A DNA stretch of 38,819 bases from an uncultured delta proteobacterium (GTDB lineage: Bacteria > Desulfobacterota > Desulfovibrionia > Desulfovibrionales > Desulfovibrionaceae): positions 2,871,171-2,909,989 of the forward strand of contig LT599018.1 in the NCBI GenBank assembly GCA_900079685.1. The letters are read 5' to 3'. Numbering within the stretch: the first letter of the stretch is position 1; every line of letters begins with the position of its first letter. Shown here in pieces: positions 6,301-31,860 of the stretch. The notes beneath the pieces are model-generated. The model had not been told where the DNA came from. It worked only from the letters and a program-made list of their open reading frames with translations, and made no database searches. Both the position numbers and the translations under genes were made by a program.

Positions 6301-6340
6301 AAAAAAAATTACGGACCCGGACCGCTAGTGCGATCCGGGC
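6301..6340 (-). terminator. Terminator of the gcvH operon
   Basis: Read on the minus strand: stem cccgga / tccggg (plus strand 6316-6321 and 6334-6339), then a spacer and an 8-base T-tract (A run at 6301-6308 on the plus strand). It lies about 80 bases after the GcvH-like gene stop and before the ugpC promoter region. Confidence 0.6.
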
Positions 6341-6418: not shown

Positions 6419-6805
6419 TCAGTCCGCGACCAGCGCCGCGTATTCCGCCGCGCTGAGAAGCCCAGCTTCGTCGGGATCATCCGGGATGATGCGCACCAGC
6501 CAGCCTTCATCGTAGGGGCTGGAGTTCAACAGCTCCGGCGTGTCCCCCAGAGCCGCATTGACTTCCACGACCTTGCCGGACATGGGCATGATCGCCTCGG
6601 ACGTGACTTTTACCGATTCCAGCTCCGCGCCGGATTCTCCCTGGGCGAAGTGGGCCCCGATCGCGGGGAGGTCGACAAAGATGACGCTGCTGAGCCGGTC
6701 CTGGGCAAAATCGCTGATGCCGATGCGGACGGAGCCGTCCGCTTCCTTTTTGGCCCAGAGGTGTTCCTTGTGGTACAGGCGGTCTTCAGGGAAATGCAAA
6801 CTCAT
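6419..6805 (-). CDS. gcvH: Lipoyl carrier protein, GcvH-like
   Basis: A 128-residue H-protein homologue. In glycine cleavage the H-protein carries a lipoyl arm between GcvP, GcvT and dihydrolipoyl dehydrogenase. Family marks: HKEHLWAK near the N-terminus, GISDFAQDRLSSVIFVDLP, the lipoylation site ESVK with Lys66, and PYDEGWLVRI at the C-terminal side. The segment after the lysine (VTSEAIMPMSGKVV) is less canonical than the usual AASDIYAPVSG type. No gcvT or gcvP is present; it is the last gene of an operon with lpd, a glutaredoxin-like fusion, an arylsulfotransferase-like protein and an SLC13 carrier. A dedicated lipoyl carrier for another redox or thiol-transfer reaction, as LbpA is in sHdr sulfur oxidation, is therefore possible. 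Confidence 0.88.
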   Translation of the reverse strand: MSLHFPEDRLYHKEHLWAKKEADGSVRIGISDFAQDRLSSVIFVDLPAIGAHFAQGESGAELESVKVTSEAIMPMSGKVVEVNAALGDTPELLNSSPYDEGWLVRIIPDDPDEAGLLSAAEYAALVAD

Positions 6806-6863
6806 GGATACCCTCCTCAGGGGCTTGCGGAATGCCCCGCTTAGATTTACGGGACACTCCGCG

Positions 6864-8234
6864 CTAGTTGGAAACAGGCGTTCTCGGCGCGGTCAGCGCG
6901 CTTTTGAGTATCTCGTCCAGCGTGGGGTGGCAGAACATGAACGCGTGCAGGCTTTCCGGCGTATGGCGGCCGAGCACCAGAAGCTGCGCCGCCGTGACGA
7001 GGTGGGAGGCGCCGTATCCCACGGCGGCCATGCCCGCGAGTTCTCCGTCCGCCCAGACGGCCTTGGCGAACCCGGCGCTGCTCCCGTGAGCCTGGGCGAT
7101 GGGGTTCATGGACATGGGCGCGACGGAAACCTCCACGCGCCGTCCTTCGGCCAAGGCTTCCCTGGCTGTTTTGCCCACGCGCATGACCTCGGCGTGGCCG
7201 AACACGCAGGAGGGAACCGGGCCGGACGCGTAGGCTCCGTCCGTCCGGCCGAGGATGCGGCGGGCGACGTATTCGGCCTGGTGGTCGGCGGCATGGGCCA
7301 GCAGGGTTTTGCCGTTCACGTCGCCGATGGCGTAACAGCCGGGAGCCGCCAGCAACGTTTCGTCCACCTGGACGAACCCCCTGGCGTTCAGGCTGCCGCC
7401 GAGCGATTCCACCCCCAGGCCGCCGGTGTTGGGGCTCCGGCCCACGGCGACCAACGCTTTCGCGGCGACGAGAGTTTCCCCGTCCTCAAAGGTTAGTTCC
7501 GCCCGGCCGTCCCTGGTGGCAAGGGATGCGACCTTGCGGCCCGTGATGCAGGCCCGGCCGGACTTTTCCGTGATTTTCCGCAGTTCCGCCGCGATATCCG
7601 CATCCTCGGTGGGGACGAGTTGGGGCATGCCCTCGACCACGGTAACCTTTGCCCCGGCGGCGGCGAAGAAATCGGAAAATTCCATGCCGATGGCACCCGC
7701 GCCGATGACGAGCAGGCTTTCCGGGATTGCGCTCTGCGCCAGGAGCATGGTGCTGTCCAGCACGGCTTCGCCGTCCGGCTCCATGCCGGGGAACGACGCG
7801 GGACGCGAACCCGTCGCCAGGATGATGTCCTTGCCTGTCAGGGTCACGGGACTGTCCCCGTCAACCGCCACCGTTCCCGGCCCGGTTATACGGCCGCGTC
7901 CCATATGGACGGCCACTCCCAGCCCGGACAGGGTTTTGGATAACGACGCGGCGGTGCCTTTGACGAACCGGTCCTTGCGTTTCTGCAGCGCGGCGAAATC
8001 CATCGAAAGGGAACAGGTGAGGGCGCAGAAGCGCTCCTGGTCGTGCAGTTCCCCGATGGGGGCTGTCGCGGCCAGCAGGAATTTGGTGGGGATGCAGCCC
8101 TGGTTGAGGCAGGTGCCGCCGAGATGGGTATCCTCCACCAGGGCGACTTTTTTGCCTCCCTGGGCCAGAAGGCGGGCGGCGGTGGTGCCGCCCGGACCCG
8201 CCCCTATGATGATGACGTCGAATGTACTGTCCAT
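6864..8234 (-). CDS. lpdA: Dihydrolipoyl dehydrogenase
   Basis: A 456-residue flavoprotein disulfide reductase that reoxidises dihydrolipoyl groups with NAD+. FAD site IIIGAGPGGTTAARLL (residues 8-23), redox-active disulfide GGTCLNQGCIPTK (Cys42/Cys47), NAD site LVIGAGAIGMEF, second FAD motif YAIGDVNG, and the catalytic His-Glu dyad in CHPTLDEIL at the C-terminus. Start set at 8234 because the Rossmann motif begins right after it and a GTGGAG Shine-Dalgarno lies upstream; a longer frame would run into the preceding gene. It is 13 bases behind that gene and 58 bases before the lipoyl carrier gene, its likely substrate. Confidence 0.93.
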   Translation of the reverse strand: MDSTFDVIIIGAGPGGTTAARLLAQGGKKVALVEDTHLGGTCLNQGCIPTKFLLAATAPIGELHDQERFCALTCSLSMDFAALQKRKDRFVKGTAASLSKTLSGLGVAVHMGRGRITGPGTVAVDGDSPVTLTGKDIILATGSRPASFPGMEPDGEAVLDSTMLLAQSAIPESLLVIGAGAIGMEFSDFFAAAGAKVTVVEGMPQLVPTEDADIAAELRKITEKSGRACITGRKVASLATRDGRAELTFEDGETLVAAKALVAVGRSPNTGGLGVESLGGSLNARGFVQVDETLLAAPGCYAIGDVNGKTLLAHAADHQAEYVARRILGRTDGAYASGPVPSCVFGHAEVMRVGKTAREALAEGRRVEVSVAPMSMNPIAQAHGSSAGFAKAVWADGELAGMAAVGYGASHLVTAAQLLVLGRHTPESLHAFMFCHPTLDEILKSALTAPRTPVSN

Positions 8235-8247
8235 GCGTTTGCTCCAC

Positions 8248-9072
8248 TTAGTCTTTTGCAATATCCGCCTTGAAGAGATGGTTGCGCACGGCGGAGCGGT
8301 AGGGCAGGAACAGCTCGAAAGGCGCAAGGCCCTGCAGGCCCTGGGGCATAAGTTCCGTCACGGCGGCTATGGCAAAGGGCAGGCCGGGCTGGCCCGTGGC
8401 CTCGGCCACCATTTTGGCGGCGTCCCCCGCTTCTTCCTTGGTGAGCCAGGAGACGCTCCCGTCCGCCCGTTTGACCGGGCTGACCAGGAGGCGGATCTCC
8501 CCTTTGGGGGAAGCCTTTACCAGTTCGACGGTCCGGGCGATATCCTCGTTGCTGACGGCGCCGCCAAAGGATGCCGCGTACACCGAAGCCGGGCCGAGGA
8601 TGTTAAGTGCCAGCCGGGCAATGTTGCCCGCCGCGAGGAGGCGTTCCAAGAGATCGGGCCTGCGGCCGTCGGACTGCAGAAACACCTGCAGCCCGCCCTC
8701 GGCGAGATGGCGGACCAGCTCCACGTAGTTGTCCTCCTGCCCGGCCGGGCACTGGGAAGGGTAGAGGCCGGATATCCAGCCGTGCAGCAGGTCGCTGCGC
8801 GTCACACTGCCTTCCAGCGCATGGCCGGACAACAGATAGGCGATGATCTCCCCGCTGCCCTGCCGAACGACCTGCCCGTCGGAAAAGAGCGGGAACTCTA
8901 TGCCCTCGGGGTTGCGGTAGATCACGGGCCGGTTGGCGCGGTAAAATGCGTTGAATTCGTCTTTTTGCTCTTTGAAGTCAACGGCTGCGTAGGGCAGATT
9001 TTTAGCCGCCAGAAACGCCTTTACGATTTTGCAGCGCAGGCAGTCCGGAGCGGTATACAGGGTTATGGACAT
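8248..9072 (-). CDS. Glutaredoxin domain fused to a radical-SAM-activase-like barrel lacking the Fe-S cysteines
   Basis: A 274-residue protein with two parts. Residues 1-75 are a glutaredoxin-like fold: MSITLYTAPDCLRCKIVKAF with the redox pair Cys11-Cys14, then RPVIYRNPEGIEFPLFSDG (cis-Pro region). Residues about 95-250 resemble the second half of a radical-SAM activating enzyme of the NrdG/PflA type: LVRHLAEGGLQVFLQSDGRR, LLAAGNIARLALNILGPA, then EIRLLVSPV. The CX3CX2C cluster motif is missing. The start at 9072 follows a good GAGAGGAA Shine-Dalgarno. Its place before lpd and the lipoyl carrier gene suggests a thiol-disulfide role. The barrel assignment is my own pattern match and needs a structure comparison. 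Confidence 0.6.
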   Translation of the reverse strand: MSITLYTAPDCLRCKIVKAFLAAKNLPYAAVDFKEQKDEFNAFYRANRPVIYRNPEGIEFPLFSDGQVVRQGSGEIIAYLLSGHALEGSVTRSDLLHGWISGLYPSQCPAGQEDNYVELVRHLAEGGLQVFLQSDGRRPDLLERLLAAGNIARLALNILGPASVYAASFGGAVSNEDIARTVELVKASPKGEIRLLVSPVKRADGSVSWLTKEEAGDAAKMVAEATGQPGLPFAIAAVTELMPQGLQGLAPFELFLPYRSAVRNHLFKADIAKD

Positions 9073-9133
9073 GCTTGTTTCCTCTCGGGTTTTTCCCCGG
9101 AGCCGCAAGGCTCCGGGGAACCGTCTCACCGGT

Positions 9134-10585
9134 TTACTTGTCGAAGGTTTCGTCGTCTTTCGCGACGCACAGCGCGTTGGACCCCTGGAAGGGGAGGGTT
9201 CCGCCTTCCACTTCCACTTCCGCGATGCGGTCGCCGAAGGGGGCCGCGCCGGGCACACGGAAGGTCTGCGGGTTCAGCGCTTCGATGGCGCGTTCCTCGG
9301 GCTTGTCTGCCTGGGGGCACCATTCGTAGGGCACCCGGTAGGCGCGGTAGATCATGTTCATGGGCAGGAAACTGCCCTTGTAGGGGGAGATGTATTCCCA
9401 GACGATTTCGTGCTGGGCGGTCACTTCGAATATGCGGCCGTCCGAGCCTTCGGTTATCAGGGTGTTGCCGTTGGGCAGGCGCTGGGCGCCGGAGATGAAG
9501 GGGCTGTAGAAGCGGTTGGCGTCCATGGGCATGGCGAAGCCCGCTTCCGCCGGAGTATACTGCCACACGATCTTCATGGACACGGGGTCGATTTCCAGCA
9601 CGCGGGAGTAATCGCGGAGCGCGGCTTTCACGCCCTTGGGCGCGCCGGGGTTGGGGTTGTCGTAGCCGCCCCAGCCGCCGTTGTCGAAAATAAGAATATT
9701 GCCTTCGCCGGGCAGGCCGCGCGGGATCATGTGGGTGTGGTGCTGCCCGATGATCCAGCCGATGGCCCTTTCTTCCGGGGTACGGTCATAATCCGGGCCG
9801 AGTTGCCAGACGATTTTGCCCGTCTTTTTGCTGACGATGAGTTGGATGTTGGCTTCGCGGCCGTCCATGATGAGGTTGTCCGGGTGGAAGCGTTCATCCC
9901 CCGCGTCGTACCACTTGTTGGGGCCGAGCACGCTCATGGAGTTGATGTGCATCCAGTCGCCCATGCCGCCGCCGACCGGGCGGTAGTTCGGGTCGCGGCA
10001 CAGGGCGTTTTTCGCGGCTTCGCGGAAGCCCATCTGGTCGAAATGGTCGCTGCACTGCCATTCCCAGACGATTTCGCCGTCCCAGGTGACTTCCACGACC
10101 AGGTCGTCCAGAAGCAGCTTGTCGGAGATGTTCTTGTTGTAGAGGTTCCGGTGGGACAATACTAAGGTGTTGCCCGAAAGGCTCTGCGGCTCAAGGCCTG
10201 GAGCATAGTAGCCCACGGGGTTGCCCGTACGCTGGTAGTCGTGGTGCTGGCGGGCCATCCAGCGGGGTTTTTCGCCCGGATCTTCAATGTACTCGACCTT
10301 GTCGAATTCCCAGACGACCTTGCCGTTCCAGTCCAGCTGAACGAGGTTGACCTGGTCCTGCATGCCGTACTTGCCGCTGCGCAGGCCCCGCGAGCCGAGC
10401 ACGTGGCCGCCGGGGAAAATCTTGTTCGGGAAGCCGTGCAGGCCTTTCCAGAGGCGGACTTCCCTGCCGTTCATGTCGATGAGCAATGCGCCCAGTTCCC
10501 TGACGGGCATGATGGTAAAGCCGCTCCAGCATTTATCCGGGTTGTATACCGTCACGCCGGTGGGGTAAATTGTCGGGTGTCCCAT
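9134..10585 (-). CDS. Arylsulfotransferase (ASST)-like beta-propeller protein
   Basis: A 483-residue protein of the arylsulfotransferase family, six-bladed propellers that transfer sulfuryl groups through a catalytic His. Motifs matching the family are GDWMHINSMSVLGPNKWYD (active-site His region), GQHHTHMIPRG followed by NILIFDNGGWGGYDN, RVLEIDPVSMKIVWQY, and GAQRLPNGNTLITEGSDGRI. Repeated W-[DN]-G-[KE]-[IV]-V-W blade motifs run throughout. Unlike classical periplasmic ASST, no signal peptide is seen, so it appears cytosolic; no DsbA/DsbB-type partner adjoins it. AAGGAGATATTC precedes the ATG. It sits between the SLC13 carrier and the glutaredoxin fusion. True sulfotransferase activity is unproven. 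Confidence 0.78.
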   Translation of the reverse strand: MGHPTIYPTGVTVYNPDKCWSGFTIMPVRELGALLIDMNGREVRLWKGLHGFPNKIFPGGHVLGSRGLRSGKYGMQDQVNLVQLDWNGKVVWEFDKVEYIEDPGEKPRWMARQHHDYQRTGNPVGYYAPGLEPQSLSGNTLVLSHRNLYNKNISDKLLLDDLVVEVTWDGEIVWEWQCSDHFDQMGFREAAKNALCRDPNYRPVGGGMGDWMHINSMSVLGPNKWYDAGDERFHPDNLIMDGREANIQLIVSKKTGKIVWQLGPDYDRTPEERAIGWIIGQHHTHMIPRGLPGEGNILIFDNGGWGGYDNPNPGAPKGVKAALRDYSRVLEIDPVSMKIVWQYTPAEAGFAMPMDANRFYSPFISGAQRLPNGNTLITEGSDGRIFEVTAQHEIVWEYISPYKGSFLPMNMIYRAYRVPYEWCPQADKPEERAIEALNPQTFRVPGAAPFGDRIAEVEVEGGTLPFQGSNALCVAKDDETFDK

Positions 10586-10641
10586 GAATATCTCCTTCTC
10601 GTGTTAACGGTTGCAGCGCACGCGCGGCGCTTTTGTAACGT

Positions 10642-10668
10642 TCTTTGGCGCGGGGTGCGCGCCCGTTT
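10642..10668 (-). other. GC-rich hairpin between SLC13 and ASST-like genes
   Basis: Inverted repeat ggcgcg / cgcgcc around a 5-base loop (plus strand 10647-10663), just after the SLC13 stop. On the minus strand no T-run follows, so it is more likely an mRNA-stability or processing stem than a terminator; on the plus strand a T5 run follows, but no gene reads that way. Confidence 0.3.
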
Positions 10669-10670
10669 TT

Positions 10671-12134
10671 CTATTTCACTATCGGATCGAATACGCCCAG
10701 CATGCTCCAATAGGGGTAGGCGACCGCCGCCAGGAGGACGAAGGCGACGATGAAGCGCACGAAAAAGACCAGCATGATGTGCCGGAGGTTCACCCAGCCG
10801 GTGGCGTAGAAGAACAGCAGCACGGCGTATTCATAAGGGAAGATGTACTGCTCGAGCCCGTAGGAGAAAGCGTACATGACCGGGATGGGGCTCACCCCGA
10901 CCTCAAGGGCCAGTTCCGTGAGCGGGACTGTCATGGCGGAGAAGGCGGCGAGCGGCGTGAGCAGGAGGTTCATGGCCGAGCCCGCGAGGTAGCCGAGCAG
11001 CATGGAGGTCAGGCCGGACTGCCCCTTGAACAAGGGCGCGATGGCGTCGACCAGCATCTTGTCCGCGCCCGAGGCCTTGGCCGCGGAGCCGATGCTCATG
11101 CACCCCACCACGAAAAAGACCGAGGCGAGGGACATCTTCTGGAAGATGCTTTCGTTCATAAGGCCCACCGCCGGGATGAAGGCCACAAAGGACAGCATGA
11201 TGATGATCCACCCCGCGTCCAGGCCGTGGAAGCGGTCCGTGAGGAGGAGCAGGATCAGGAGAAGGATCAGCGTGCCGGTCTTTTTTTCGCCGGTGTCCAT
11301 GGGGCCGAGCTCGGCGTGGGCTTTTGTCACGTAGGCGGTGGAATCCTGATCCATTTTGGGCCGGAGCACGAGGATCAGCGTCAGAAGGCTCAGCACGCCG
11401 TAAATACAGGAAAGGGGGAAGTTGTGCAGGAAATATTCGCCCCAGCTGACCGGCTTGCCCATGACCTGCGCCATCTGGCCGACGTACATGGTGATGTCCG
11501 CGGCCCCGGTCAGGAGGCCGATCTTGGACGTGGCGATGCCGATGAACCCGGCCAGGACGACGGCCGAGGCCGCCTTGCTCTGCCGTTCAAGGCTCAGCGC
11601 CTCGCAGATGCCAATGCAGACGACGGAGATGAGCGCGGCCTTGCCCATGATGGACGGGATGGCCGGGCAGATGACGAAGCCCGCCAGCAGGATGCCCCAG
11701 AGCAGCCGGTTGAAGGACCCCCTGGTGATGTACAGCGCCCAGATGGCGAGGCGTTTGGCCAGCCCCGTGCGCATCATCATGTTGGCGAAAACGAGGCCGC
11801 CCACCACGATCCAGCCCACGGACGACATCCAGGAATTGAGGATCTGGTTGGGTTTTCCTACCTGGAGCACGATATAGAAGATGGGCAGGGCGATGGCCAC
11901 AAAGGTATCGCTCATGAGGCCGAGCGCCCAGAGCACGAGGGCCGAGGACGTCAGCGTGAAAAAGAGCGTCTGCTTGACCGGCAGCCCGCCCGCGGAACAC
12001 CCGGCATAGACGGCCAGGGGGATGAGCACCGCCAGCGCCCATTGCGCATACACCGCAAGCGGCGCTTTTTTGTTAACGTTTTCCGCGCGACCGCCCGCGG
12101 GGGGATTGCCTAGGGTGTTCTGGCTTGTGCTCAT
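10671..12134 (-). CDS. SLC13/DASS-family anion:Na+ symporter
   Basis: A 487-residue polytopic membrane protein of the divalent anion:sodium symporter family (CitT/SdcS/NaS-type), which import dicarboxylates, tricarboxylates or sulfate-like anions. It shows about 11-12 hydrophobic helices, including the helix-breaking segments SVGWIVVGGLVFANMMMRTG and NLLLTPLAAFSAMTVPL typical of the two substrate-binding hairpins. An AGGAGGCGCC Shine-Dalgarno precedes the ATG. As the first gene of the ASST-Grx-lpd-gcvH operon it probably supplies the anionic substrate of that pathway, perhaps a sulfonate, sulfate ester or carboxylate; this is inference from context. Confidence 0.87.
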   Translation of the reverse strand: MSTSQNTLGNPPAGGRAENVNKKAPLAVYAQWALAVLIPLAVYAGCSAGGLPVKQTLFFTLTSSALVLWALGLMSDTFVAIALPIFYIVLQVGKPNQILNSWMSSVGWIVVGGLVFANMMMRTGLAKRLAIWALYITRGSFNRLLWGILLAGFVICPAIPSIMGKAALISVVCIGICEALSLERQSKAASAVVLAGFIGIATSKIGLLTGAADITMYVGQMAQVMGKPVSWGEYFLHNFPLSCIYGVLSLLTLILVLRPKMDQDSTAYVTKAHAELGPMDTGEKKTGTLILLLILLLLTDRFHGLDAGWIIIMLSFVAFIPAVGLMNESIFQKMSLASVFFVVGCMSIGSAAKASGADKMLVDAIAPLFKGQSGLTSMLLGYLAGSAMNLLLTPLAAFSAMTVPLTELALEVGVSPIPVMYAFSYGLEQYIFPYEYAVLLFFYATGWVNLRHIMLVFFVRFIVAFVLLAAVAYPYWSMLGVFDPIVK

Positions 12135-12417
12135 GGCGCCTCCTGGTGCCGTTTGACGTTGCCGGTATGCCGCGCGGCCGGGCCGGAGAGATCACAAAAG
12201 GCTCGGCGGGTCGCGGGGTCTTAGAATGTATCTATAAAACAAATTATGATTATCGGGGAAATAAAAAATTAGTCTGGGCTAAGATGCGTCATTTTTTTTT
12301 AACTTTGTGCAATTTTCCGGCAATGGCGCGGAATGGCTTTGATTCCCTGCGCTTTTCTGGTACACCTCCGAGTGGAAGGACCCTTTTGTGGTGCATGGCG
12401 CCGACCGAGGAGGCCGC
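12135..12417. promoter_or_regulatory. Divergent promoter region, SLC13 operon and Crp/Fnr-type regulator
   Basis: A 283-base gap with an AT-rich core (about 12225-12315) inside GC-rich flanks, as expected for back-to-back promoters. The regulator's Shine-Dalgarno GAGGAGG is at 12408-12414. I searched for a symmetrical Crp/Fnr-type site and found none convincing; weak candidates are TTAG-N6-CTAA near 12269-12282 and the stretch around ttgtgcaattttccggcaat. Confidence 0.5.
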
Positions 12418-13107
12418 ATGACGAACACGCCGCAAGCCGGGCCGATTATCACCAGTACCGGCGATGTTTGGGAAAAATACCTGCATTACGGCGTCAGGCG
12501 CGCGTATCCGGCCAACCACACCCTGCTGCACCCGGGGGAACGATCCGATCTGATTTATTACATCCAGTCCGGCGAAGTGCTTATTTCCACGTATGCGTCG
12601 CCGGAAAGCCTGAGCCGCCTTTTCATCCTGCGCGGCAAATCCCTGCTCGGCCTTATCGGCATGTTCACGCAGAACGCGTCAATGGTTTCCTGGCTGACCC
12701 TGGAACCCTGCGTCTGCTATCTTTTCACCAAAAAAGACATTTACGAAAAACTCCCCCGCGAGCTGCTCCTGAACATGCTGGAGCAGCTCGGCGCGATGAG
12801 CAGTTCCATGACGCGGCGGTTCGCCCACGGCAACACGAAGCGTCTGGACGTCAGGCTGGCCCGCCTTCTGGTGCATCTGGCGGACGCCTGCCCCAAGGCG
12901 GATGCGCAACCGCCCGGCGGCCTTGTGGTAACGCCGAGCGTGACCCAGGAAATGGCCAGCGATCTTTTGGGCATGCACCCGGTGACCATGAACCGGCTCC
13001 TTGCCGCGTTGCGGGCCGAAGGGATTCTCGGCCGGTTCACCAAAAAAAAGCTCGAGGTGCTGGATTTCAAACGCCTCGTGGAATACGCGGAGGGCAACCA
13101 GCCGTGA
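12418..13107 (+). CDS. Crp/Fnr-family transcriptional regulator
   Basis: A 229-residue regulator. Residues about 20-130 form a cyclic-nucleotide-binding-type jelly roll (LLHPGERSDLIYYIQSGEV, then LFILRGKSLLGLIGMF); a dimerisation helix follows, and a winged HTH at about 170-220 holds VTQEMASDLLGMHPVTMNR. The N-terminus has no Fnr-type cysteine cluster, so the effector is not obvious. Start chosen at 12418, which has GAGGAGG five bases upstream; a longer frame from 12388 lacks this. It diverges from the SLC13-ASST operon and precedes a DUF169 gene, so it probably controls one or both. Confidence 0.87.
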   Translation: MTNTPQAGPIITSTGDVWEKYLHYGVRRAYPANHTLLHPGERSDLIYYIQSGEVLISTYASPESLSRLFILRGKSLLGLIGMFTQNASMVSWLTLEPCVCYLFTKKDIYEKLPRELLLNMLEQLGAMSSSMTRRFAHGNTKRLDVRLARLLVHLADACPKADAQPPGGLVVTPSVTQEMASDLLGMHPVTMNRLLAALRAEGILGRFTKKKLEVLDFKRLVEYAEGNQP

Positions 13108-13156: not shown

Positions 13157-14005
13157 ATGAGCGGAATGCAGGCGGTCAACACGAAAACGGAACGGCTGCT
13201 GGAACTGTTGGGCCACGACGAAGGCCCTCTCGGCGTCCACTACACGGACGAAAAGCCGGACGGTTTCGGCCCCAAACCGGGGGAAATTTTTACCCGCGAG
13301 CGGGAGAGCGCCGGAAAAATTGACTGGAGCACGGCGTTTAACGATTTTTCCTGTATCATCGGCAATATCTGGCTGGCGCGTAAAAAGAGAAAAGCGGCCT
13401 GGCTCAGCCTTGAGGAAAGCGGCTGCATGGGGGGCGGGTTCTATTCGGGCCTCTGCGGCCCGTATCTGGAAACGAACGTGCACTACGTTTCCACCGGGAT
13501 TCCCGGCACGGTCATCGAGGGCGAGCATTACCTGCCGTCGGTGGCGTCCATGCGCTCGTTCATGGAGGATTCCACCCCGCCGCCGGCCACGGGCAAATAC
13601 TGCGTCATCAAGCCGCTGGAGCAGTTCACCGACGAATCCCTGCCGCTGGTGGTGGCGTTTTTCGCAAGGCCGGAAGCCCTGGCGGGCCTGTTCTCGCTCG
13701 CCTGCTACGCGGCCGCCAGCCACGAGGCCGTGGCCTCGCCCTTTGGCGCGGGGTGCACGAACATTATCGCCTGGCCGTTGATTTACCAGCAGAGGGGGCT
13801 GGAGCGCGCGGTCATCGGCGGGTTTGACCTCTCCGCGCGCAAATTCATGAAGACGGACGAGCTTTCGTTCGCGATGCCGCTTGCTTTGTACCGGAAAATG
13901 CTTGACGCCATGGAACCGTCGGCGCTCACGCGCCACACGTGGCAGGGCGGGCGGAAAAAAGTGCTGAAAAGCAGGCGCGCATGGGGCGAGGAGGCGAAAG
14001 AGTAA
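13157..14005 (+). CDS. DUF169-family protein
   Basis: A 282-residue protein of the DUF169 family (function unknown, common in anaerobes). It has the conserved blocks GPLGVHYTDEKPDGF near the N-terminus, ESGCMGGGFYSGL around residue 95 and SPFGAGCTNIIAWPL around residue 200, with several conserved cysteines that could bind metal or a cofactor. The ATG at 13157 is preceded by GCGAGG and lies 49 bases after the regulator stop, so the two genes are probably co-transcribed. No signal peptide or membrane segment. The role is unknown; neighbourhood suggests a link to the divergent ASST/lipoyl operon or to redox sensing. Confidence 0.82.
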   Translation: MSGMQAVNTKTERLLELLGHDEGPLGVHYTDEKPDGFGPKPGEIFTRERESAGKIDWSTAFNDFSCIIGNIWLARKKRKAAWLSLEESGCMGGGFYSGLCGPYLETNVHYVSTGIPGTVIEGEHYLPSVASMRSFMEDSTPPPATGKYCVIKPLEQFTDESLPLVVAFFARPEALAGLFSLACYAAASHEAVASPFGAGCTNIIAWPLIYQQRGLERAVIGGFDLSARKFMKTDELSFAMPLALYRKMLDAMEPSALTRHTWQGGRKKVLKSRRAWGEEAKE

Positions 14006-24513: not shown

Positions 24514-25296
24514 TCACGCCGGGGAGTCTTTTCCGGAAAGAATGTGCGGCGCGGGTTGCGCCGCGTACAGGGCGGAGGATATCCCGGTGGGGAACGGCGC
24601 CCGGTGCAGGACCGTGAAGTTGCCTTCCCCGTCGCTGCGGCAGACGGTGATGGCTTCTATCCAGTTGTTTTTGCAGGCGGGGGCCAGGTACAACCGCAAA
24701 TTCGCTTCCAGCGCGGCGGCGAGAATCGGGTCCCGGATACTGTCCGTCAGGGTGATGTGGAAGCGGAACTCGTCAAAGACGTAAGGGTATCCCCAGCGCC
24801 AAAGATACCGCTCCTGGCGTAGCGTCAGGCCCTTTGCGCGCCGCCGGTTTAATTCCTCCTCGGAAGGAGGAGCGCGGAAACCGTCGAAAAAGGCGACCGC
24901 TTCCCTGGCCAGAATCCGGACGTTTTCCGCTTCTTCCGCTTCCGCGTCGTTCCTCGGGTGGACGGTAAGGGCGAGAAAGGAGCCGATGCGGGTGACAGCC
25001 AGGGCGGGCAGCGGGAGCGGCCGTCTTGCGGCGGTGAACGCTTCGGCGGCGTCGATGAGATCGTGCTCCGTCATGCCGGGTTGCAGGAAAAACGGCGGTT
25101 TGAGCGTGGCGTGCAACCCGTAGCGCCTGGCGTCCCGCGTCAGCGAAAACAATTCCTCCGCCGTGAGGCCGCCCAGGTCCGGTTGCGCCGGAAGGCTCAC
25201 GCCGTGAATGTCCCTGCCCAGCAGGGAGGAGCCCAGGCGCTCGAGGGCGGACCCCCGCTCGGGCACATGGTAAACGGCATAGCGCGGTGCTTTCAT
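24514..25296 (-). CDS. DUF1045 phosphonate-operon protein, 2H phosphoesterase-like
   Basis: A 260-residue protein of the DUF1045 family found in C-P lyase operons. It carries the two H-x-T/S motifs of the 2H phosphoesterase superfamily: YGLHATLKPPF (about residues 60-70) and FRFHITLTDS (about 178-187), spaced as in cyclic phosphodiesterases. The start is four bases after the phnM stop. In E. coli the cyclic product of PhnJ, 5-phosphoribosyl 1,2-cyclic phosphate, is opened by PhnP; no phnP is seen here. A 2H enzyme would be chemically suited to that step, so DUF1045 may substitute for it. That is inference. Confidence 0.85.
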   Translation of the reverse strand: MKAPRYAVYHVPERGSALERLGSSLLGRDIHGVSLPAQPDLGGLTAEELFSLTRDARRYGLHATLKPPFFLQPGMTEHDLIDAAEAFTAARRPLPLPALAVTRIGSFLALTVHPRNDAEAEEAENVRILAREAVAFFDGFRAPPSEEELNRRRAKGLTLRQERYLWRWGYPYVFDEFRFHITLTDSIRDPILAAALEANLRLYLAPACKNNWIEAITVCRSDGEGNFTVLHRAPFPTGISSALYAAQPAPHILSGKDSPA

Positions 25297-25299
25297 GGG

Positions 25300-26445
25300 T
25301 TACAACACCTGTTTTCCTTCCCGCCAGACGGCCCGGACCATGGGCACGCCGTTGACGAGGCGCACCCGCACGGCGTCCGCGCGTTTGCCGGGAGCGAGTT
25401 CTCCCCGGTCTTCCAGGCCCACGGCCCTGGCCGGGGCCAGCGTCACGGTGCGCAGCGCGTCGCGCAAGGGGATACCCGCGAGGGAGGGCAGCATGAAGGC
25501 GGCGTGCAAAAGGCTCGCGGGCATGTAGTCCGAGGAGAGGATGTCCAAGAGGCCCTCGCGGGCGAGTTCCACGGCCGCCACGTTGCCGGAATGCGAGCCG
25601 CCCCGCACCACGTTGGGCGCGCCCATGACGATGGAAAGCCCCAGGGACCGCGCTTCCCGCGCCGCTTCCAGCGTGGTGGGGAACTCCGCTATCCGCATGC
25701 CTTGCGCTGCGTTTTCCCGCACGTGTTCGGTTGTGGTATCATCGTGGCTGGCGAGAGGGAAGCCGTTTTTCCGGCAGATATGGATGATTTCCAAAAGATT
25801 TCCCCGGGCGTTTTTGGCCTGGAGCGCGCGCAGCCCGTCTATTCGTTCTTGAATCAGGTGTTCCGGCTCGTGCTGGATGTTGCAGTACCGCTTGTACGCC
25901 TCCAGGTCGCGCCACTGCCGCTGGCCCGGCGTGTGGTCCATGACCGAGAACAGCTTCAGGTTTTTCCGGCCCAGCAGCGGCTCCACCCGGTCTATGACGT
26001 CGTCGCCCGCGATTTCGCACCGCAGGTGCAGGTAGTGGTCCGCCCGCAGAAGGCCGGCTTCTTCCGCGTCTTCCAACGCGTCCAGGCTCGAGTGGAAGAT
26101 TTCCTGCCGCATGTGCTTGTTGCCCGGCTCCCCGACGGTCACCGCGTCAAAAACCGTGGTCACGCCGGAGCCGACCATGTGCACATCGTGCGCGACCACC
26201 GAGGAGAGCCCCACGGGCCAGCTCACACCCGTGCGCGGCACGAAATGTTTTTCCAGGTTGTCGGTGTGCAGTTCCACCAGGCCCGGGATGAGATAATCGC
26301 CCTCAAGGTCCGTGGAATCCGGCGCGCCGTGCCCGGTGCAATGGCGGGCGCAATGGTCCGCCACGTGCGCGCCCTCGAACGAAAGGGCGCGCACTTCCCC
26401 CATGTCGGATAAAATATGGCCGTTATGAAACGTGTGTGTCAGCAT
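25300..26445 (-). CDS. phnM: Alpha-D-ribose 1-methylphosphonate 5-triphosphate diphosphatase PhnM
   Basis: A 381-residue amidohydrolase-superfamily enzyme that removes pyrophosphate from the PhnGHIL product. Marks: DYLIPGLVELHTDNLEKHF (metal site, His-x-Asp-N variant typical of PhnM), VAHDVHMVGSGVTT, LASHDDTTTEHV, VMGAPNVVRGGSHSGN and LSSDYMPASLLHAAF. Start at 26445, where GAGGAA provides the Shine-Dalgarno and overlaps the phnE stop; the frame runs six codons further up without a site. Confidence 0.94.
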   Translation of the reverse strand: MLTHTFHNGHILSDMGEVRALSFEGAHVADHCARHCTGHGAPDSTDLEGDYLIPGLVELHTDNLEKHFVPRTGVSWPVGLSSVVAHDVHMVGSGVTTVFDAVTVGEPGNKHMRQEIFHSSLDALEDAEEAGLLRADHYLHLRCEIAGDDVIDRVEPLLGRKNLKLFSVMDHTPGQRQWRDLEAYKRYCNIQHEPEHLIQERIDGLRALQAKNARGNLLEIIHICRKNGFPLASHDDTTTEHVRENAAQGMRIAEFPTTLEAAREARSLGLSIVMGAPNVVRGGSHSGNVAAVELAREGLLDILSSDYMPASLLHAAFMLPSLAGIPLRDALRTVTLAPARAVGLEDRGELAPGKRADAVRVRLVNGVPMVRAVWREGKQVL

Positions 26446-26455
26446 GGCTGTTTCC

Positions 26456-27250
26456 TCATACAAAGCGTTTGCGCAAACATTGCGAGAGAAGGTCGAAAAC
26501 GACCACCACCGCGATGATGATGGCCATGACCGCCGCGGTTTTGGCGAAATAGAACCCCCGGATAAGTTCCCAGAGGATCACGCCGATGCCGCCCGCGCCC
26601 ACCATGCCGACCACGGTGGCGGAGCGGATGTTGGATTCAAACCGATAGAGCGCGAAGGAGATCCAGAGCGGCATCACCTGCGGGATGACGCCGAAGATCA
26701 CTTCCTCCACGCCCAGGGCGCCGGTCGCGCGGATGCCTTCCACGGGCTGCGGGTCAATGGCTTCCACCGCCTCGGAAAAGAGTTTCGACAAGACCCCGGT
26801 GGTGTGCACGAAGAGCGCCAAAACCCCGGCAAAGGGGCCGAGGCCCACGGCCACCACGAACAGCATGGCGAAGACCATTTCATTGATGGCGCGGCAGCCG
26901 TCCATCAGGCGGCGCACCGGCTGGTAGACCCACCAGGGAACGATGTTGTCGGAACTGAGAATGCCGAAGGGCACGGCGAAGATGACCGCCAGGAAGGTGC
27001 CCCACACGGCCAGCTGGATGGTTATGGCCATCTCTTCCACATACAGGCGCCAGTCGGCGAAGTCCGGCGGGAAAAAATCCTTCGCGAACATGACCATGTT
27101 GGCGGCGTCCGTGAACAGCGCCATGGGCCGGATTTCCGCCCCGTTCCACGACCAGGCCAGGACCGCCAGACCGAGGCCCCACCCCAGGCAGGAGAAAAGC
27201 GTTTGCTTCGGCGCGGCGGCGGGAGAGGGTGCAAGAGTAGTACTGCTCAT
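26456..27250 (-). CDS. phnE: Phosphonate ABC transporter permease PhnE
   Basis: A 264-residue inner-membrane permease of the phosphonate importer PhnCDE. It has an N-terminal anchor (about 20-38), a conserved [20 protein letters not shown] segment, [20 protein letters not shown], the coupling-loop region [20 protein letters not shown], and [14 protein letters not shown], typical of PhnE. Start at 27250 by homology and a CAGGGAA upstream. Only one phnE is present, as in most full operons. Confidence 0.92.
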
Positions 27251-27330
27251 CGTGATTCCCTGCCGCCTTCCGGCGCGGGCCGTCCCGTTTGGCCGGGCAC
27301 GGCCGCGCCGCCGGAGGCGGCGTTTTGTTC

Positions 27331-28344
27331 TTATTTTTTGATGACCGCCATGCGGGTGCCGAGTTCGACCAACTTGTCGTCGATTTCCTTGATCTTCGCG
27401 GCTTTTTCCGCTTCGTTCATGTCGGTGTTCGCGGCCAGGCTGCCTTTGGCCTTGAAAAGCTCGAGCTGGCGAATGGGCAGGAGGTGGTCGTCGGTGGCGG
27501 CCAGGAACGGACCCCACTGCAAGGCTTTCAGCACTTCCTTCTCATGGGCGGTCTGTGTGCCCTTGGCGCCGTAGGTCATGAAGAATTCCCGCAGCGTTTT
27601 TTTGACGTCCTCGGGCAGGTCTTTGCGCCAGACCAGCGGGTCGCTCGGGATGAGGGGAGAAGTCCAGACGACCTTAATCAGCTTGCGCTTTTCAGGGTGC
27701 GCCAGTTCGAGGCGTTCGAGGGCCTCGTTGTTGCAGGTGGCGACGTCCACCTGCTTGTTGGCAACGGACAGGGCATTGGTTTCGTGGTTGGCGTTGAGCG
27801 TGCGCTTGAACATTTTCTTGGGGTCCAGGCCGTTTTTGGCGAACACGTAATAGCCCGGAACCAGGAAGCCGGAGGTGGAGTTGGGGTCGCCGTTGCCGAA
27901 GGTCAGGTCTTTCGCGCCTGCGATGACGTCCTCCACGGTGTTCAGCGGGGAATCCACGTTGGCGACGAGGTGGGAGTAATAGCCGTCCGAGCCGTCATAG
28001 CTGGTGGTCTGCATGAAGACTTCGCCCTTGGCCCGGTCCACGGCTTCCATGGCCGACTTGTTGCCGTACCAGGCGAGCTGGACCTTGTCGTATTGCATGG
28101 CCGTGACGACCCCGGCGTAGTCCGAAGCGAAAAAGGCGTTTATGGTGTAGCCGGTGCGCGCTTCCATGTCTTTCAGAAAGGGTTCCCACACGGAGCGCAG
28201 GTTTTGCGAGGCCTCGGTGTTGATGATGCCGAAGTTGAGCACACGCTTGTCCGCGGCGTGGGCGACGGAAGCGTAGAGAATGAAGCACATGCCCAAGAGG
28301 CCGATGATCGACGTTACGAAAATTTTGCGAAAGACCGTAATCAT
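27331..28344 (-). CDS. phnD: Phosphonate-binding periplasmic protein PhnD
   Basis: A 337-residue substrate-binding protein. The signal peptide runs through [19 protein letters not shown] (about residues 12-30) with cleavage at AHA-AD. Family blocks: [68 protein letters not shown] and [20 protein letters not shown] strong AAGGAG lies 10-15 bases upstream of the ATG. It is separated from phnC by about 180 bases that hold a palindromic mobile-element-like sequence, so its expression relative to phnC may differ from the rest of the operon. Confidence 0.94.
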
Positions 28345-28379
28345 TCTGAAATCTCCTTTTGCGATGGTGTGTGTTGTTT

Positions 28380-28529
28380 TAGGGGAGCGCTGATTAATGA
28401 GAATTTTTATTCTTTGTCGAGGAAGGCGAGTTCCGGGCGGAGCGAAGTGTATCAGGACATACATGAGCTTCGCACGGGACGAGCCTGACGCGGGCAAAGG
28501 GCAAAAAGACCATTAAGCAGTGCTCCCTA
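28380..28529. mobile_element. MITE-like palindromic element between phnC and phnD
   Basis: Imperfect terminal inverted repeats: left gggagcgctgattaatg (28383-28399) and right cattaagcagtgctccc (28511-28527), 15 of 17 positions matching. Both ends are flanked by TA (28380-28381 and 28528-28529), as expected for a TA target duplication. The similarity between arms continues inwards (ttttt..ctttg on both sides), and the middle folds as gcgaag ... cttcgc around gtat / atac. It encodes nothing and looks like a small non-autonomous element of the IS630/mariner or IS5 kind. Confidence 0.6.
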
Positions 28530-29402
28530 GGCCGCGACGGGATTCGTCGTGGTGACGGGTATCCGCACGGGGGCTTTGAGGCGGGGTTTTGCGGCCCCCC
28601 CCCCCTGGTCCGCTTTTGGGGCTGCTTTTTCCGTCATGGGCGCGAACATTTCCTCGCTGGCCGCGCCGTAGATTTCCCGCAGGAAGGCGGGAGTGAGGGC
28701 GGCGGATGGGCCGTCGTACACGATCTTGCCGTCCTTGAGGGCGATGGTCCGTTTGCAGTATTTGATGGCGTAATCGACCTGGTGCAGCGTCACCAGGACC
28801 GTGATGCCGTCCCGCGTGTTGATGTCCGCCAGGATCTCCATGACGCGGCGGGAGGATTCCGGGTCGAGCGAGGCGATGGGCTCGTCGGCCAGCAGCAGTT
28901 TGGCCTTCTGCACCAAAGCGCGGGCAATGGCCGCGCGCTGTTGCTGCCCGCCGGACAGGGTGGAGGCGCGCTGGTACGATTTGTCCACGATGCCCACGCG
29001 GTTAAGGGCTTCAAAGGCGAGCCGCCTGTCCTCCTCGCGGAACAGGCCGAGCATGGTCCGCCAGATCGGGGTTCTGCCCAGAGCGCCGAGCATGACGTTG
29101 GTGTACACGTTGAGCCTGTCCACCAGGTTGAACTGCTGGAAAATCATGCCGACGTCCGCCCGGATTTTCCGGATGTCGCCCCTGAGACGCCCGCCGCGCT
29201 GCACGGTTTTACCCATTACCGCGATGCTGCCGCCGTTTTTGTCGCCGCGCATCAGGCCGGAAATGTGGCGGAGGAGCGTGGACTTGCCGGAGCCGGAAGC
29301 GCCGATAAGGGCGACCATCTCGCCGGGGTTGACGGAAACGGATACGGAATCAAGCGCCCGGTGGGCGGCGAAGGTCTTGGTGAAATTCTGTATGGTGAGC
29401 AT
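28527..29402 (-). CDS. phnC: Phosphonate ABC transporter ATPase PhnC
   Basis: A 291-residue ATPase. Walker [38 protein letters not shown], signature [16 protein letters not shown], Walker [14 protein letters not shown] and H-loop [11 protein letters not shown] identify PhnC. The start at 29402 follows homology ([17 protein letters not shown]); AAGGAGAAGCGC lies upstream. About 35 extra residues follow the normal family end (after PMTEK), rich in Ala/Pro/Lys, containing Gly codons from an 11-base G run (C11 at 28595-28605), and stopping at a TAG formed by the edge of the adjacent palindromic element. The tail probably reflects that insertion. Confidence 0.93.
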
Positions 29403-29544
29403 GCGCTTCTCCTTTTGTTTCACGATATGAAGGCAGCCTATGCCGCCAATGTTGCGGAACGATGACCGTCGCATGGTTCTTTGGAAACAAAACAGCCCTG
29501 TTCCGTGTTGGGAGCAGGGCTTCGGCAATGCGGCGCGGGCTGCG

Positions 29545-30201
29545 TCAGGCGGCGCGGGAGGCTGCGGACGCGGGGGATGCTGCAAAAGCATGCGGCATGG
29601 CCGTGTCTTCCCGCAGGTTCAGGATAAGACGGGAAAAGGCCGCGACGGCGCTCTCCAGCGGCCCGGAATTATCGATGACGACCAGCCCCGGAACGTCCGG
29701 CACGGCCAGCGCCGCGCGGCGGATGCGCTCGTCTATTTCTCCGGCTGTCTCCCGGCCCCGCGCGGCGAGGCGTTGGCGCAGCGCTTCCGGGGTCACGCGG
29801 ATGAGCACCGGGACCAGGTGGGGGTACATTTTTGCGGCCTCGGGCAGGTATTCGCGCGAGCCGTTCACGATGACCACGGCGTCGGCCGCGAGCCAGCCGT
29901 CTATCTCCCTGCTGATGCCGTAGGAAAGGCCGTGGCTTTCCCAGTGCATGACGAATTCGCCTTTTTGGAGGGCGCGGGCGAATTCGGCATCCGTCATTTC
30001 GTGGTGGTTTTCCGCGCTGCCCCCGGCCGGGCGGGTGATGCGCCGCCGGGCGACGTGCAGGGGCCGCGTTTCCAGGGAGCCGGTGGGCATATCCTGCACG
30101 CGGGCGATGAGGGTATCCTTGCCGGCGCCCGAGGGGCCGACCACATACACGAGCACGCCCGGCAGGGCCGCGCCGGTGGGAGAATTCTTGCTGTCAGGCA
30201 T
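29545..30201 (-). CDS. phnN: Ribose 1,5-bisphosphate phosphokinase PhnN
   Basis: A 218-residue guanylate-kinase-like enzyme that turns ribose 1,5-bisphosphate into PRPP, the last step of the C-P lyase route. P-loop [13 protein letters not shown] (residues about 19-31), [33 protein letters not shown] and [16 protein letters not shown] are PhnN-specific. Start at 30201 with AGGAGG just upstream; it overlaps the phnL stop by 8 bases. The C-terminal 20 residues are Ala-rich and not conserved. Confidence 0.92.
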
Positions 30202-30922
30202 GGGCCGCCTCCTTTTCCCGCTGTTTTCCAAAGGCGAAAGTGCGTTCCGCCACGGTCTCGCGGACCTCGTCGTCGTGGAAAATCCCGATGACCGCCGCGC
30301 CTCTGGCCTTGGCCTCGCCTATCAACTCCACCACGGTTTGGCGGTTTTTGCCGTCAAGGGAGGCCGTGGGTTCATCCAGCAACAGAATGGGGTATTCCCG
30401 GATAAACCCGCGCGCGATATTGACCCGCTGCTGCTCCCCGCCGGAAAAGGTGGCCGGGGCCAGGTTCCAGAGGCGTTTGGGAATGCGCAGCCGGTTCAGC
30501 AGTTCCCCGGCCCGTTCCCGGGCTTCTTCCGCGTCTATCCCTTGTTCCGTCAGCCGCTCGGCCACAATGTCGATGGTCGAAACCCTGGGGATGACCCGCA
30601 GAAACTGGCTGACATAGCCCATGGTCTCGCGCCGGACTTCCAGAACCGTGCGCGGCTCGGCGGTGACCATATCGACCCGGGTCCGGCCGTGACGGACGAC
30701 GATGCTCCCGGCCGTCGGCTTGTAGTTGGCATAGAGAGAGCGCAGCAGCGTGGACTTGCCGGAGCCGGAGGGGCCGTGCAGCGCAAGGCATTCCCCGGCC
30801 CAGGCGTCAAGGTTCAGCCCGTGGAAGGCGTCAATGACCGCGCCGCCCTGGGCGTGGAGCACGAAGGTCTTGGACAGGTTCCGGACCGCGACGTGCGGGG
30901 TATCGGCAGTGTTTTGGCTCAT
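30194..30922 (-). CDS. phnL: C-P lyase ABC-type protein PhnL
   Basis: A 242-residue ATPase-like subunit needed, with PhnGHI, to couple phosphonate to ATP-derived ribose. Walker [41 protein letters not shown], signature FSGGEQQRVNIARGF and Walker B PILLLDEPTASLD are clear. The segment after Walker A (GSIVVRHGRTRVDMVTAEP) is typical of PhnL. No membrane partner is expected. It is 5 bases behind phnK. Confidence 0.95.
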   Translation of the reverse strand: MSQNTADTPHVAVRNLSKTFVLHAQGGAVIDAFHGLNLDAWAGECLALHGPSGSGKSTLLRSLYANYKPTAGSIVVRHGRTRVDMVTAEPRTVLEVRRETMGYVSQFLRVIPRVSTIDIVAERLTEQGIDAEEARERAGELLNRLRIPKRLWNLAPATFSGGEQQRVNIARGFIREYPILLLDEPTASLDGKNRQTVVELIGEAKARGAAVIGIFHDDEVRETVAERTFAFGKQREKEAAHA

Positions 30923-30927
30923 GGCTG

Positions 30928-31860
30928 TTATCCTTGCAAAATGGATGAAACGAGCAGTTGCGTGTATTCATGCCGGGGGTCGTCCAGGACCTGGTCCGCG
31001 AGGCCGGTCTCCACCACCTCGCCGCGCCGCATGACCATGAGCCGGTGCGCCAGAAGCCGCGCCACCGCAAGATCGTGCGTGACGAGCACCACCGAGAGGC
31101 CCATTTCCCGGACCAGAGTGCGGACGAGATCCAGGAGCTTCGCCTGCACGGAAACATCTAATCCCCCTGTAGGCTCATCCATGAACACGAGCCGGGGGGC
31201 GGAGACGAGGTTACGCGCGATCTGGAGGCGCTGTTGCATGCCGCCGGAATAGGCGGACGGGGTATCGTCGATGCGGTCCGCGCCGATCTCCACCCGGCCG
31301 AGCCAGGAGAGGCCCGTTTCCCGGATGTTCCCGTAATGCCGGTTTCCGCAGGCCATGAGCCGCTCGCCGATGTTGCCCCCGGCGGAGACGCGCATGCGCA
31401 GCCCGTCGCGCGGGTTCTGGTGCACATAGCCCCACTCGGTCCGCAAAAGACGACGGCGGGCCGCTTCCGGCAGGTTGTGGATGTCCAGCAGCGCGCCGGA
31501 AGCGTCCCGGTAGCGAACCCTGCCCGAGGTCGGGGCCATGCGGCCGGAAACAAGGTTCAGCAGCGTGCTTTTGCCGGAGCCGGATTCCCCGACAATGGCC
31601 AGCACTTCGCCGGGCCAGAGCTCGAAGCTGACGTCCTTGCAGCCGACACGGCTGCCGTAATATTTGGAAACGCCCTCAATGTGCAGCAGTCCCTGTTCCG
31701 GGAACGGCTGCGGCCGCGCGGCCAAAGGCAGTTCACGGCCTGTTTGTGCCAAGGACAGACCATAGCCTGCTTGCGCCAAGGGCAATTCACGGCCCCCTTC
31801 CGCATTGAAGAGCGGTTTTTCACCGCGAAGGGGAAATCTGCTGACAGCCGGTTCAGCCAT
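30928..31860 (-). CDS. phnK: C-P lyase ABC-type protein PhnK with repeat-bearing N-terminal extension
   Basis: A 310-residue ATPase-like subunit that docks on the PhnGHIJ core near PhnJ. The ABC core starts near residue 52 (LLHIEGVSKYYGSRVGCKDV): Walker [41 protein letters not shown], signature YSGGMQQRLQIARNLV, Walker B LVFMDEPTGGLD, VVLVTHDLAVARLL. E. coli PhnK has 252 residues and lacks the first 50 or so; here they include three 9-residue repeats (GRELPLAQA, GYGLSLAQT, GRELPLAAR) from a 27-bp tandem repeat. The ATG at 31860 overlaps the phnJ end by 8 bases. An internal start closer to the core cannot be excluded. Confidence 0.93.
   Translation of the reverse strand: MAEPAVSRFPLRGEKPLFNAEGGRELPLAQAGYGLSLAQTGRELPLAARPQPFPEQGLLHIEGVSKYYGSRVGCKDVSFELWPGEVLAIVGESGSGKSTLLNLVSGRMAPTSGRVRYRDASGALLDIHNLPEAARRRLLRTEWGYVHQNPRDGLRMRVSAGGNIGERLMACGNRHYGNIRETGLSWLGRVEIGADRIDDTPSAYSGGMQQRLQIARNLVSAPRLVFMDEPTGGLDVSVQAKLLDLVRTLVREMGLSVVLVTHDLAVARLLAHRLMVMRRGEVVETGLADQVLDDPRHEYTQLLVSSILQG
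31714..31794 (-). repeat. Three tandem 27-bp repeats within phnK
   Basis: Units at 31768-31794, 31741-31767 and 31714-31740 (in coding order), imperfect, encoding GRELPLAQA, GYGLSLAQT and GRELPLAAR. The length of 27 keeps the frame, so copy number could vary without disrupting phnK. Confidence 0.75.

Follow-up and report, generated by a model that had tools for sequence, protein, structure and literature searches.

What might an operon do that joins an anion carrier and an arylsulfate sulfotransferase-like propeller protein to a glutaredoxin fusion, a dihydrolipoyl dehydrogenase and an orphan lipoyl carrier? The question is raised by a stretch of 38,819 nucleotides (the window) of contig LT599018.1, from an uncultured member of the Desulfovibrionaceae, in which these five genes lie collinear on the minus strand, read from 12134 to 6419 (Table 1). 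An earlier note on this DNA had listed the five genes in this order, on one strand and closed by a terminator, and Pfam matches, coordinates and a hairpin at 6340-6315 bear this out. We propose that the operon serves to import an organosulfate, a sulfate ester that may be phenolic, and to desulfurylate it reductively, giving sulfite, and we put the probability of this reading at about one half. All the parts are of known families; what would be new is their combination and the pathway proposed for it. The note knew of no described pathway with this gene set, and a literature search of titles and the beginnings of abstracts, with supplements and many journals outside its scope, found no description of either the set or the pathway.

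On its predicted fold and on five of six published active-site residues, the propeller protein is a true arylsulfate sulfotransferase (ASST). Its model (predicted local distance difference test score, pLDDT, 90.1) matches Streptomyces Cpz4 (9kf6) with Z 34.0 and a root-mean-square deviation (rmsd) of 2.8 over 324 residues, and Escherichia coli AssT (4p05) with Z 24.1 and rmsd 3.6 over 328 residues. With these two sulfotransferases of PF05935, which work independently of 3'-phosphoadenosine 5'-phosphosulfate (PAPS), the protein shares a six-bladed propeller, the nucleophilic His, two further His, an Asn and an Arg. For AssT, the accessible part of a 2026 review (PMC13426309) names His436 as the nucleophile and His252, His356, Asn358, Arg374 and Thr501 as the other active-site residues; it also states that ASSTs form a sulfohistidine. 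Alignment with AssT and with its mutant 4p04, which has Asn in place of the nucleophile, puts the nucleophile at H282, whilst H213, N215 and R243 correspond to His356, Asn358 and Arg374, and H114/H115 to His252 by position only (residue numbers were counted along the printed alignment). None of the 50 ASST rows departs from the residues aligned to His252, His356, Asn358, Arg374 and His436. The idea that the nucleophile had been lost, suggested by Arg384 where secreted paralogues have His, was dropped on the strength of the alignment with AssT and the H436N mutant.

The N-terminus (MGHPTIYPTG) shows no signal peptide by inspection, and on that inspection the enzyme is predicted to be cytoplasmic. 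It has no counterpart of the AssT N-terminal domain, as its match begins at AssT residue 117. The operon protein thus differs from AssT and Cpz4 in having no evident signal peptide, in the replacement of Thr501, in a conserved Cys in the C-terminal tail, and in being partnered with an importer and thiol-relay genes. The tail residue, Cys473, is invariant (50/50 rows), and a Cys lies within the last 40 residues of all 89 full-length members of the ASST clade. Eight paralogues with 27-34% identity, found in some of the loci fetched for comparison (numbered with L), have signal-like N-terminal stretches; four of the eight also carry a tail Cys, which is at another position in both of the readable ones (L033, L035). 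Signal-like starts also mark a second ASST, sharing about 30% identity with the cytoplasmic enzyme of the same locus, at L052:6485-7855, L033:2764-4182, L035:12415-13761 and L036:7643-9013; this secreted type is possibly a periplasmic partner.

The earlier note envisaged a relay from NAD(H) through dihydrolipoyl dehydrogenase (Lpd) and a lipoyl carrier to glutaredoxin (Grx). The parts of this relay stand, with their redox and lipoyl residues kept, and its direction is something we infer. In the Grx-fusion model (pLDDT 94.8), residues 1-84 match NrdH (1h75; Z 10.4, rmsd 2.3 over 73), and in an alignment of 41 rows the CxRC motif is kept in every row that covers it (C11 in 31/31, C14 in 32/32), the other 10 and 9 rows, respectively, being shortened by choice of start. 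The note's label of 'glutaredoxin/radical-SAM-like fusion' holds in its first half, by NrdH fold and CxRC; in its second the likeness is one of fold only, with no cluster motif. The half-barrel domain matches the radical SAM fold of NifB (7jma) with Z 9.7 and rmsd 4.8 over 156 residues, and biotin and lipoyl synthases are among its Foldseek matches; identity as a radical SAM enzyme was rejected, since only three Cys are present (C11, C14 and C108) and the CX3CX2C motif is thus missing. A distant relative of the Grx-fusion that has lost CxRC lies at L042:9393-10244, beside a 2513-aa open reading frame (ORF). The two-Cys redox motif and C-terminal HPxxxE of Lpd are present in the window protein and in all 35 called Lpd proteins of more than 430 aa in the fetched loci, and the lipoyl motif ESxK is kept in 37 of 37 cassette copies of the GcvH-like carrier (H protein).

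This H protein is not the one used in glycine cleavage, because a second gcvH adjoins gcvPA and gcvPB elsewhere in the genome. As the note had said, the operon contains neither gcvT nor gcvP, nor any gcv gene beyond H, and a glycine-cleavage role was set aside. In a tree of 37 cassette rows and 17 other GcvH-family rows the cassette label changes twice, as against 14.6 times in shuffles; the window H protein falls within a set of 21 cassette rows (support 100/99), apart from its own genome's other GcvH. Support is weak (80/67) for a larger set of 32 cassette rows, from which four Mailhella rows and L098 are left out; the GcvH matches in this tree came from 30 fetched loci only, 13 of them already cassette rows. 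In the Mailhella-type loci (L037, L072, L092 and L095) a distant H protein (45-46% identity) and a distant Lpd (34-37%) stand beside the ASST, as if the relay had been replaced there. Three of the 80 ASST loci described below (L074, L076, L088) have LipB-like and LipA-like genes next to the set, and a LipA-like gene is found near it in L039.

The note had also pointed to LbpA of sHdr sulfur oxidation, and the likeness is real as far as it goes: both systems have a GcvH-like lipoyl carrier outside glycine cleavage, LbpA being placed in sulfur metabolism by the accessible parts of PMC6067878 and PMC10332631. Kinship with LbpA was nevertheless rejected on Cys content. LbpA has two strictly conserved Cys near both ends, according to the available part of PMC6067878, whereas the window H protein has none; among the 37 cassette H proteins, 13 have no Cys, 18 have one and six have two or more, counts that carry no comparison of positions. 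The operon differs further from the sHdr system in that no Hdr-like genes are seen in it and in its proposed direction, which is reductive. No shdr or special lipoylation genes stand in the operon or directly beside it, a result that covers this neighbourhood and not the whole genome.

Does the set recur? The families co-occur in many genomes, and neither of the findings that the note said would speak against its view was made: the gene order is not unique to this genome, and the operon H protein is not a sole GcvH serving gcvT/gcvP elsewhere. A search of 297 genomes of the order with the Grx-fusion found clear relatives (E <= 1e-27) in 53, some of them partial at contig ends; at E <= 1e-3 matches were found in 158, the weaker ones covering only residues ~90-210 and looking like other proteins. 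Twenty Grx-fusion loci, chosen for diversity and some on short contigs, were inspected, and all five families occur together in eight (L033, L034, L035, L039, L049, L051, L052 and L038, the last with a distant Lpd upstream). Relatives of the ASST are found in two phyla. Scanning GTDB contigs with the ASST alignment gave 541 relatives among 589 candidate stretches. The best 80 of the 541 were kept, so that the counts over 80 loci describe the closest ASST relatives only. Within 6 kb of the ASST in these loci, the Grx-fusion was found in 49 and H and Lpd in 23 each, with all three present in 16 and any of them in 51; among the 43 loci with more than 6 kb on both sides, the corresponding figures were 23, 12, 13, 9 and 24. 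A recognised importer lies within 6 kb in 69 of the 80 (40 of the 43), so an imported solute is likely, as the note supposed. Importer types, assigned by Pfam on one or two members each, were DASS, MFS, TRAP (DctP, DctQM), TTT (TctA, TctB, TctC) and NMT1-type ABC, and the Grx-fusion, H, Lpd and DASS were all near the ASST in six of the 80 loci. Cultured type strains are among the carriers of the set, for instance Solidesulfovibrio alcoholivorans DSM 5433 (L059); locus L076 is that of Desulforamulus aeronauticus DSM 10349.

The Grx-fusion is a frequent, not an obligate, partner of the ASST. One explanation would be that the genes merely adjoin and do not work together, the importer and ASST forming one pair and the Grx, lipoyl and Lpd proteins a redox unit unrelated to it; the 29 of 80 loci that have no relay gene near the ASST would fit this. 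However, the genes are found together again and again in two phyla, in varying order and with various importers. In a tree built from 50 ASSTs, moreover, the label 'relay genes near', which carries noise from contig ends, changes 14 times (15.5 in shuffles), so that the linkage is not one inherited block; we consider the explanation quite improbable. An argument about sulfate versus sulfite use from the same tree was dropped, as relay linkage is scattered over it.

A more serious alternative is desulfation without reduction, in which the ASST, serving detoxification or the use of carbon, would hand the sulfuryl group on to a different hydroxyl compound; the only task of the Grx, lipoyl and Lpd proteins would be to keep the ASST Cys reduced or to reduce the freed aromatic. 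Four Paenibacillus and Clostridium cuniculi have the ASST and an ABC importer with no relay gene nearby, and such a transfer is the known ASST reaction in the accessible part of PMC13426309. Against this, a dedicated lipoyl carrier and Lpd would be left without a reason, and there would be no account of relay genes in dsrA-positive genomes that lack aprA and sat. We regard this alternative as unlikely, if less so than the others considered here. On our reductive reading, the ASST and ABC importer of Paenibacillus may work with general thiols in sulfur assimilation.

The sulfur genes of the host and of other carriers bear on where the sulfuryl group would go. The host genome (3 contigs, 95.4% complete) has dsrA and one ASST of the cytoplasmic clade; it was searched for aprA and sat, and neither was found, so the organism is probably a sulfite respirer unable to use sulfate. 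Among the cassette genomes, dsrA was over cut-off in 41 of 50 (50 of the 80) and aprA in 23 of 51, the host being counted there as a negative; 18 of the 41 dsrA-positive genomes had no aprA. Of 14 genomes tested for sat, picked mainly from those that lack aprA, 10 gave no match. Moorella sulfitireducens has the ASST, the Grx-fusion and dsrA, and aprA and sat were not found in it. Within the order, the Grx-fusion occurs in 16 of 32 genomes that are dsrA-positive and aprA-negative, as compared with 32 of 235 that have both (Fisher p 8e-6). Another possibility is that the sulfuryl group passes to a nucleotide, so that adenosine 5'-phosphosulfate (APS) or the like is made without ATP sulfurylase and APS reductase then gives sulfite, the relay genes serving some other purpose. 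The 23 carriers with aprA would allow for this, and the available part of PMC10507020 reports a gut sulfite respirer with AprAB but without Sat. The host itself has no aprA, however, nor do the 18 dsrA-positive carriers have one over cut-off, and the thiol relay is left unexplained; of the alternatives weighed here we hold this to be the least probable.

With an ASST active site in the propeller, a sulfuryl group is the most likely target of the relay, which would free sulfite. The DASS carrier would import the organosulfate anion, and the cytoplasmic ASST would take SO3 onto His282, releasing the alcohol or phenol; this second step would follow the chemistry of the family, its residues being in place. 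The SO3 would then move on to a thiol and form an S-sulfonate: most likely it would go first to Cys473 and from there to the Grx CxRC, or else straight to a Grx or dihydrolipoyl thiol. A second thiol would displace sulfite and leave a disulfide, as in PAPS reductase, and the thiols would be re-reduced from NADH through Lpd and the lipoyl-H protein to Grx. The sulfite would go to DsrAB, in an organism in which genes leading from sulfate to sulfite were not detected. The net reaction would be R-OSO3- + NADH + H+ -> R-OH + HSO3- + NAD+, with no ATP.

In PAPS reductase a Cys accepts the sulfuryl group, and sulfite is then released by a redoxin. The proposed chemistry, with transfer to the tail Cys and release of sulfite by a redoxin, resembles that of PAPS/APS reductases working with thioredoxin or glutaredoxin. 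The likeness is one of function and not of membership: the operon has no CysH-type protein, and the proposed donor is an organosulfate, by way of a sulfohistidine, rather than a nucleotide. Respiration of the organosulfonates taurine and isethionate, with IslA in Bilophila, is comparable in that, in the available descriptions, an organic sulfur compound donates sulfite to DsrAB in a sulfite respirer. In that route the C-S bond is cut by a glycyl radical enzyme, whereas our proposal involves an O-sulfuryl group and a thiol relay. The substrate could also be a sulfonate, with the set cleaving its C-S bond reductively to sulfite, which would again be the product. TRAP, TTT, NMT1-type ABC and DASS importers, all present near the set, also serve sulfonates in known pathways. 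The active site, however, matches enzymes that move SO3 from O-sulfates, and we know of no ASST that acts on C-S bonds; a sulfonate substrate seems to us improbable.

Several observations weigh against the reductive desulfurylation of an organosulfate. In the protein itself, AssT Thr501 is replaced at position 364 (Ile in 48/50 rows, Val in 2/50), next to the invariant S365, and the model shows little order in the tail with Cys473. The proposed pathway also leaves the half-barrel domain unaccounted for. Thiols are not among the ASST acceptors (phenols, alcohols, amines and sugars) reported in the accessible part of PMC13426309. The loci without relay genes near the ASST also count here: of the 29, 24 genomes were searched, the loci left out being L063, L068, L102, L120 and L125, and a Grx-fusion match at E <= 1e-15 is absent from 13 of them and present in 11, in one of these only as a partial match; in L120 the Grx-fusion is found further off in the same locus. 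As to sulfite, the set extends beyond sulfite-only organisms, since aprA is present in many carriers; dsrA is not over cut-off in nine of 50 cassette genomes, two of which (L053, L084) have both the Grx-fusion and H close to the ASST, and within the order dsrA is missing at E <= 1e-100 from 5 of the 53 genomes with a Grx-fusion. The enrichment in dsrA-positive, aprA-negative genomes is a lead and not proof, because related genera weigh heavily in it and some genomes are incomplete.

Table 1. Features of the operon and its divergent neighbour (window coordinates)
Feature	Position	Strand	Evidence
DASS/SLC13-type anion carrier, 487 aa	10671..12134	-	PF00939 84.4 bits (cut-off 27)
Cytoplasmic ASST-type sulfotransferase (predicted), 483 aa	9134..10585	-	PF05935 77.2 bits (cut-off 24.2); His282 nucleophile by alignment; tail Cys473
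Grx-fusion: glutaredoxin (CxRC) and half-barrel domain without cluster Cys, 274 aa	8248..9072	-	
Dihydrolipoyl dehydrogenase-like flavoprotein (Lpd), 456 aa	6864..8234	-	PF07992 192.8 bits, PF02852 58.3 bits
GcvH-like single lipoyl-domain protein (H), 128 aa	6419..6805	-	PF01597 120 bits; ESxK lipoyl motif
Terminator-like hairpin, then T run	6315..6340	-	Hairpin scan
Divergent CRP/FNR-type regulator	12418..13107	+	Gene call; PF00027 and PF13545 on longer start 12388

The gaps between the genes, calculated from the coordinates, are 85, 61, 13 and 58 bp from DASS through to H, and a plausible ribosome-binding site was read by eye at each chosen start. For Lpd the listed ORF starts with a TTG at 8327, inside the Grx gene, and the ATG at 8234 is the better start; likewise the ATG at 9072 is preferred to the listed GTG at 9258 for the Grx-fusion. 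Some family scores fall short of curated cut-offs: the carrier reaches 81.8 bits against TIGR00785 (cut-off 198.6) and Lpd 374.3 bits against TIGR01350 (408.8), while H is above that of TIGR00527 (124.1 bits, 115.85). The Grx-fusion matches GST_N_3 at 22.4 bits, barely above the cut-off of 22, with Glutaredoxin (20.8) and Radical_SAM (18.6) both below theirs. Because the hairpin scan finds many terminator-like sites (16 per 9 kb, 8.8 expected, sd 3.3), assignment of the terminator rests on its position and T run. Relatives of the divergent CRP/FNR-type regulator lie near the set in several other loci; a palindromic CRP/FNR site was sought in 12135-12417 and nothing convincing was found. Directly behind the regulator, a DUF169 (COG2043) protein is encoded at 13166-14005 (+).

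In one further locus (L044:598-9912) the ASST is in two ORFs with another ORF between them, and two transposase genes precede a shortened Grx-fusion. Recurring neighbours of ~530 and ~300 aa (L051:5983-7566 and L040:5665-6567) have signal-like starts and no Pfam match, and look like candidate outer-membrane channels. Elsewhere in the window, a phosphonate cluster of the C-P lyase type occupies 24514-35031 (-), with PhnJ at 31853-32749 and PhnI at 32739-33875; it also holds a DUF1045 protein and an amidohydrolase at 24514-26403.

Taken as a whole, the note's interpretation is borne out in the co-occurrence of the families, the H protein outside glycine cleavage and the importer, and not in the LbpA kinship. 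Going beyond it, we tentatively suggest, at rather less than even odds, that organosulfate respiration is an undescribed anaerobic route, in which transfer from sulfohistidine to thiol (ASST Cys473, Grx) would be driven by NADH through a dedicated lipoyl carrier, would bypass ATP sulfurylase and APS reductase, and would occur in two phyla, among sulfite reducers and sulfate reducers alike. The natural acceptors of most bacterial aryl sulfotransferases are unidentified and their physiological roles poorly understood, according to the accessible part of the 2026 review (PMC13426309). If our proposal is true, a large ASST clade would gain a role in feeding sulfite respiration from sulfate esters without ATP for sulfate activation, and lipoyl carriers would have a further reductive task in sulfur metabolism. 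The sulfated phenols of hosts, plants and algae would then be linked to sulfide production in guts and sediments.

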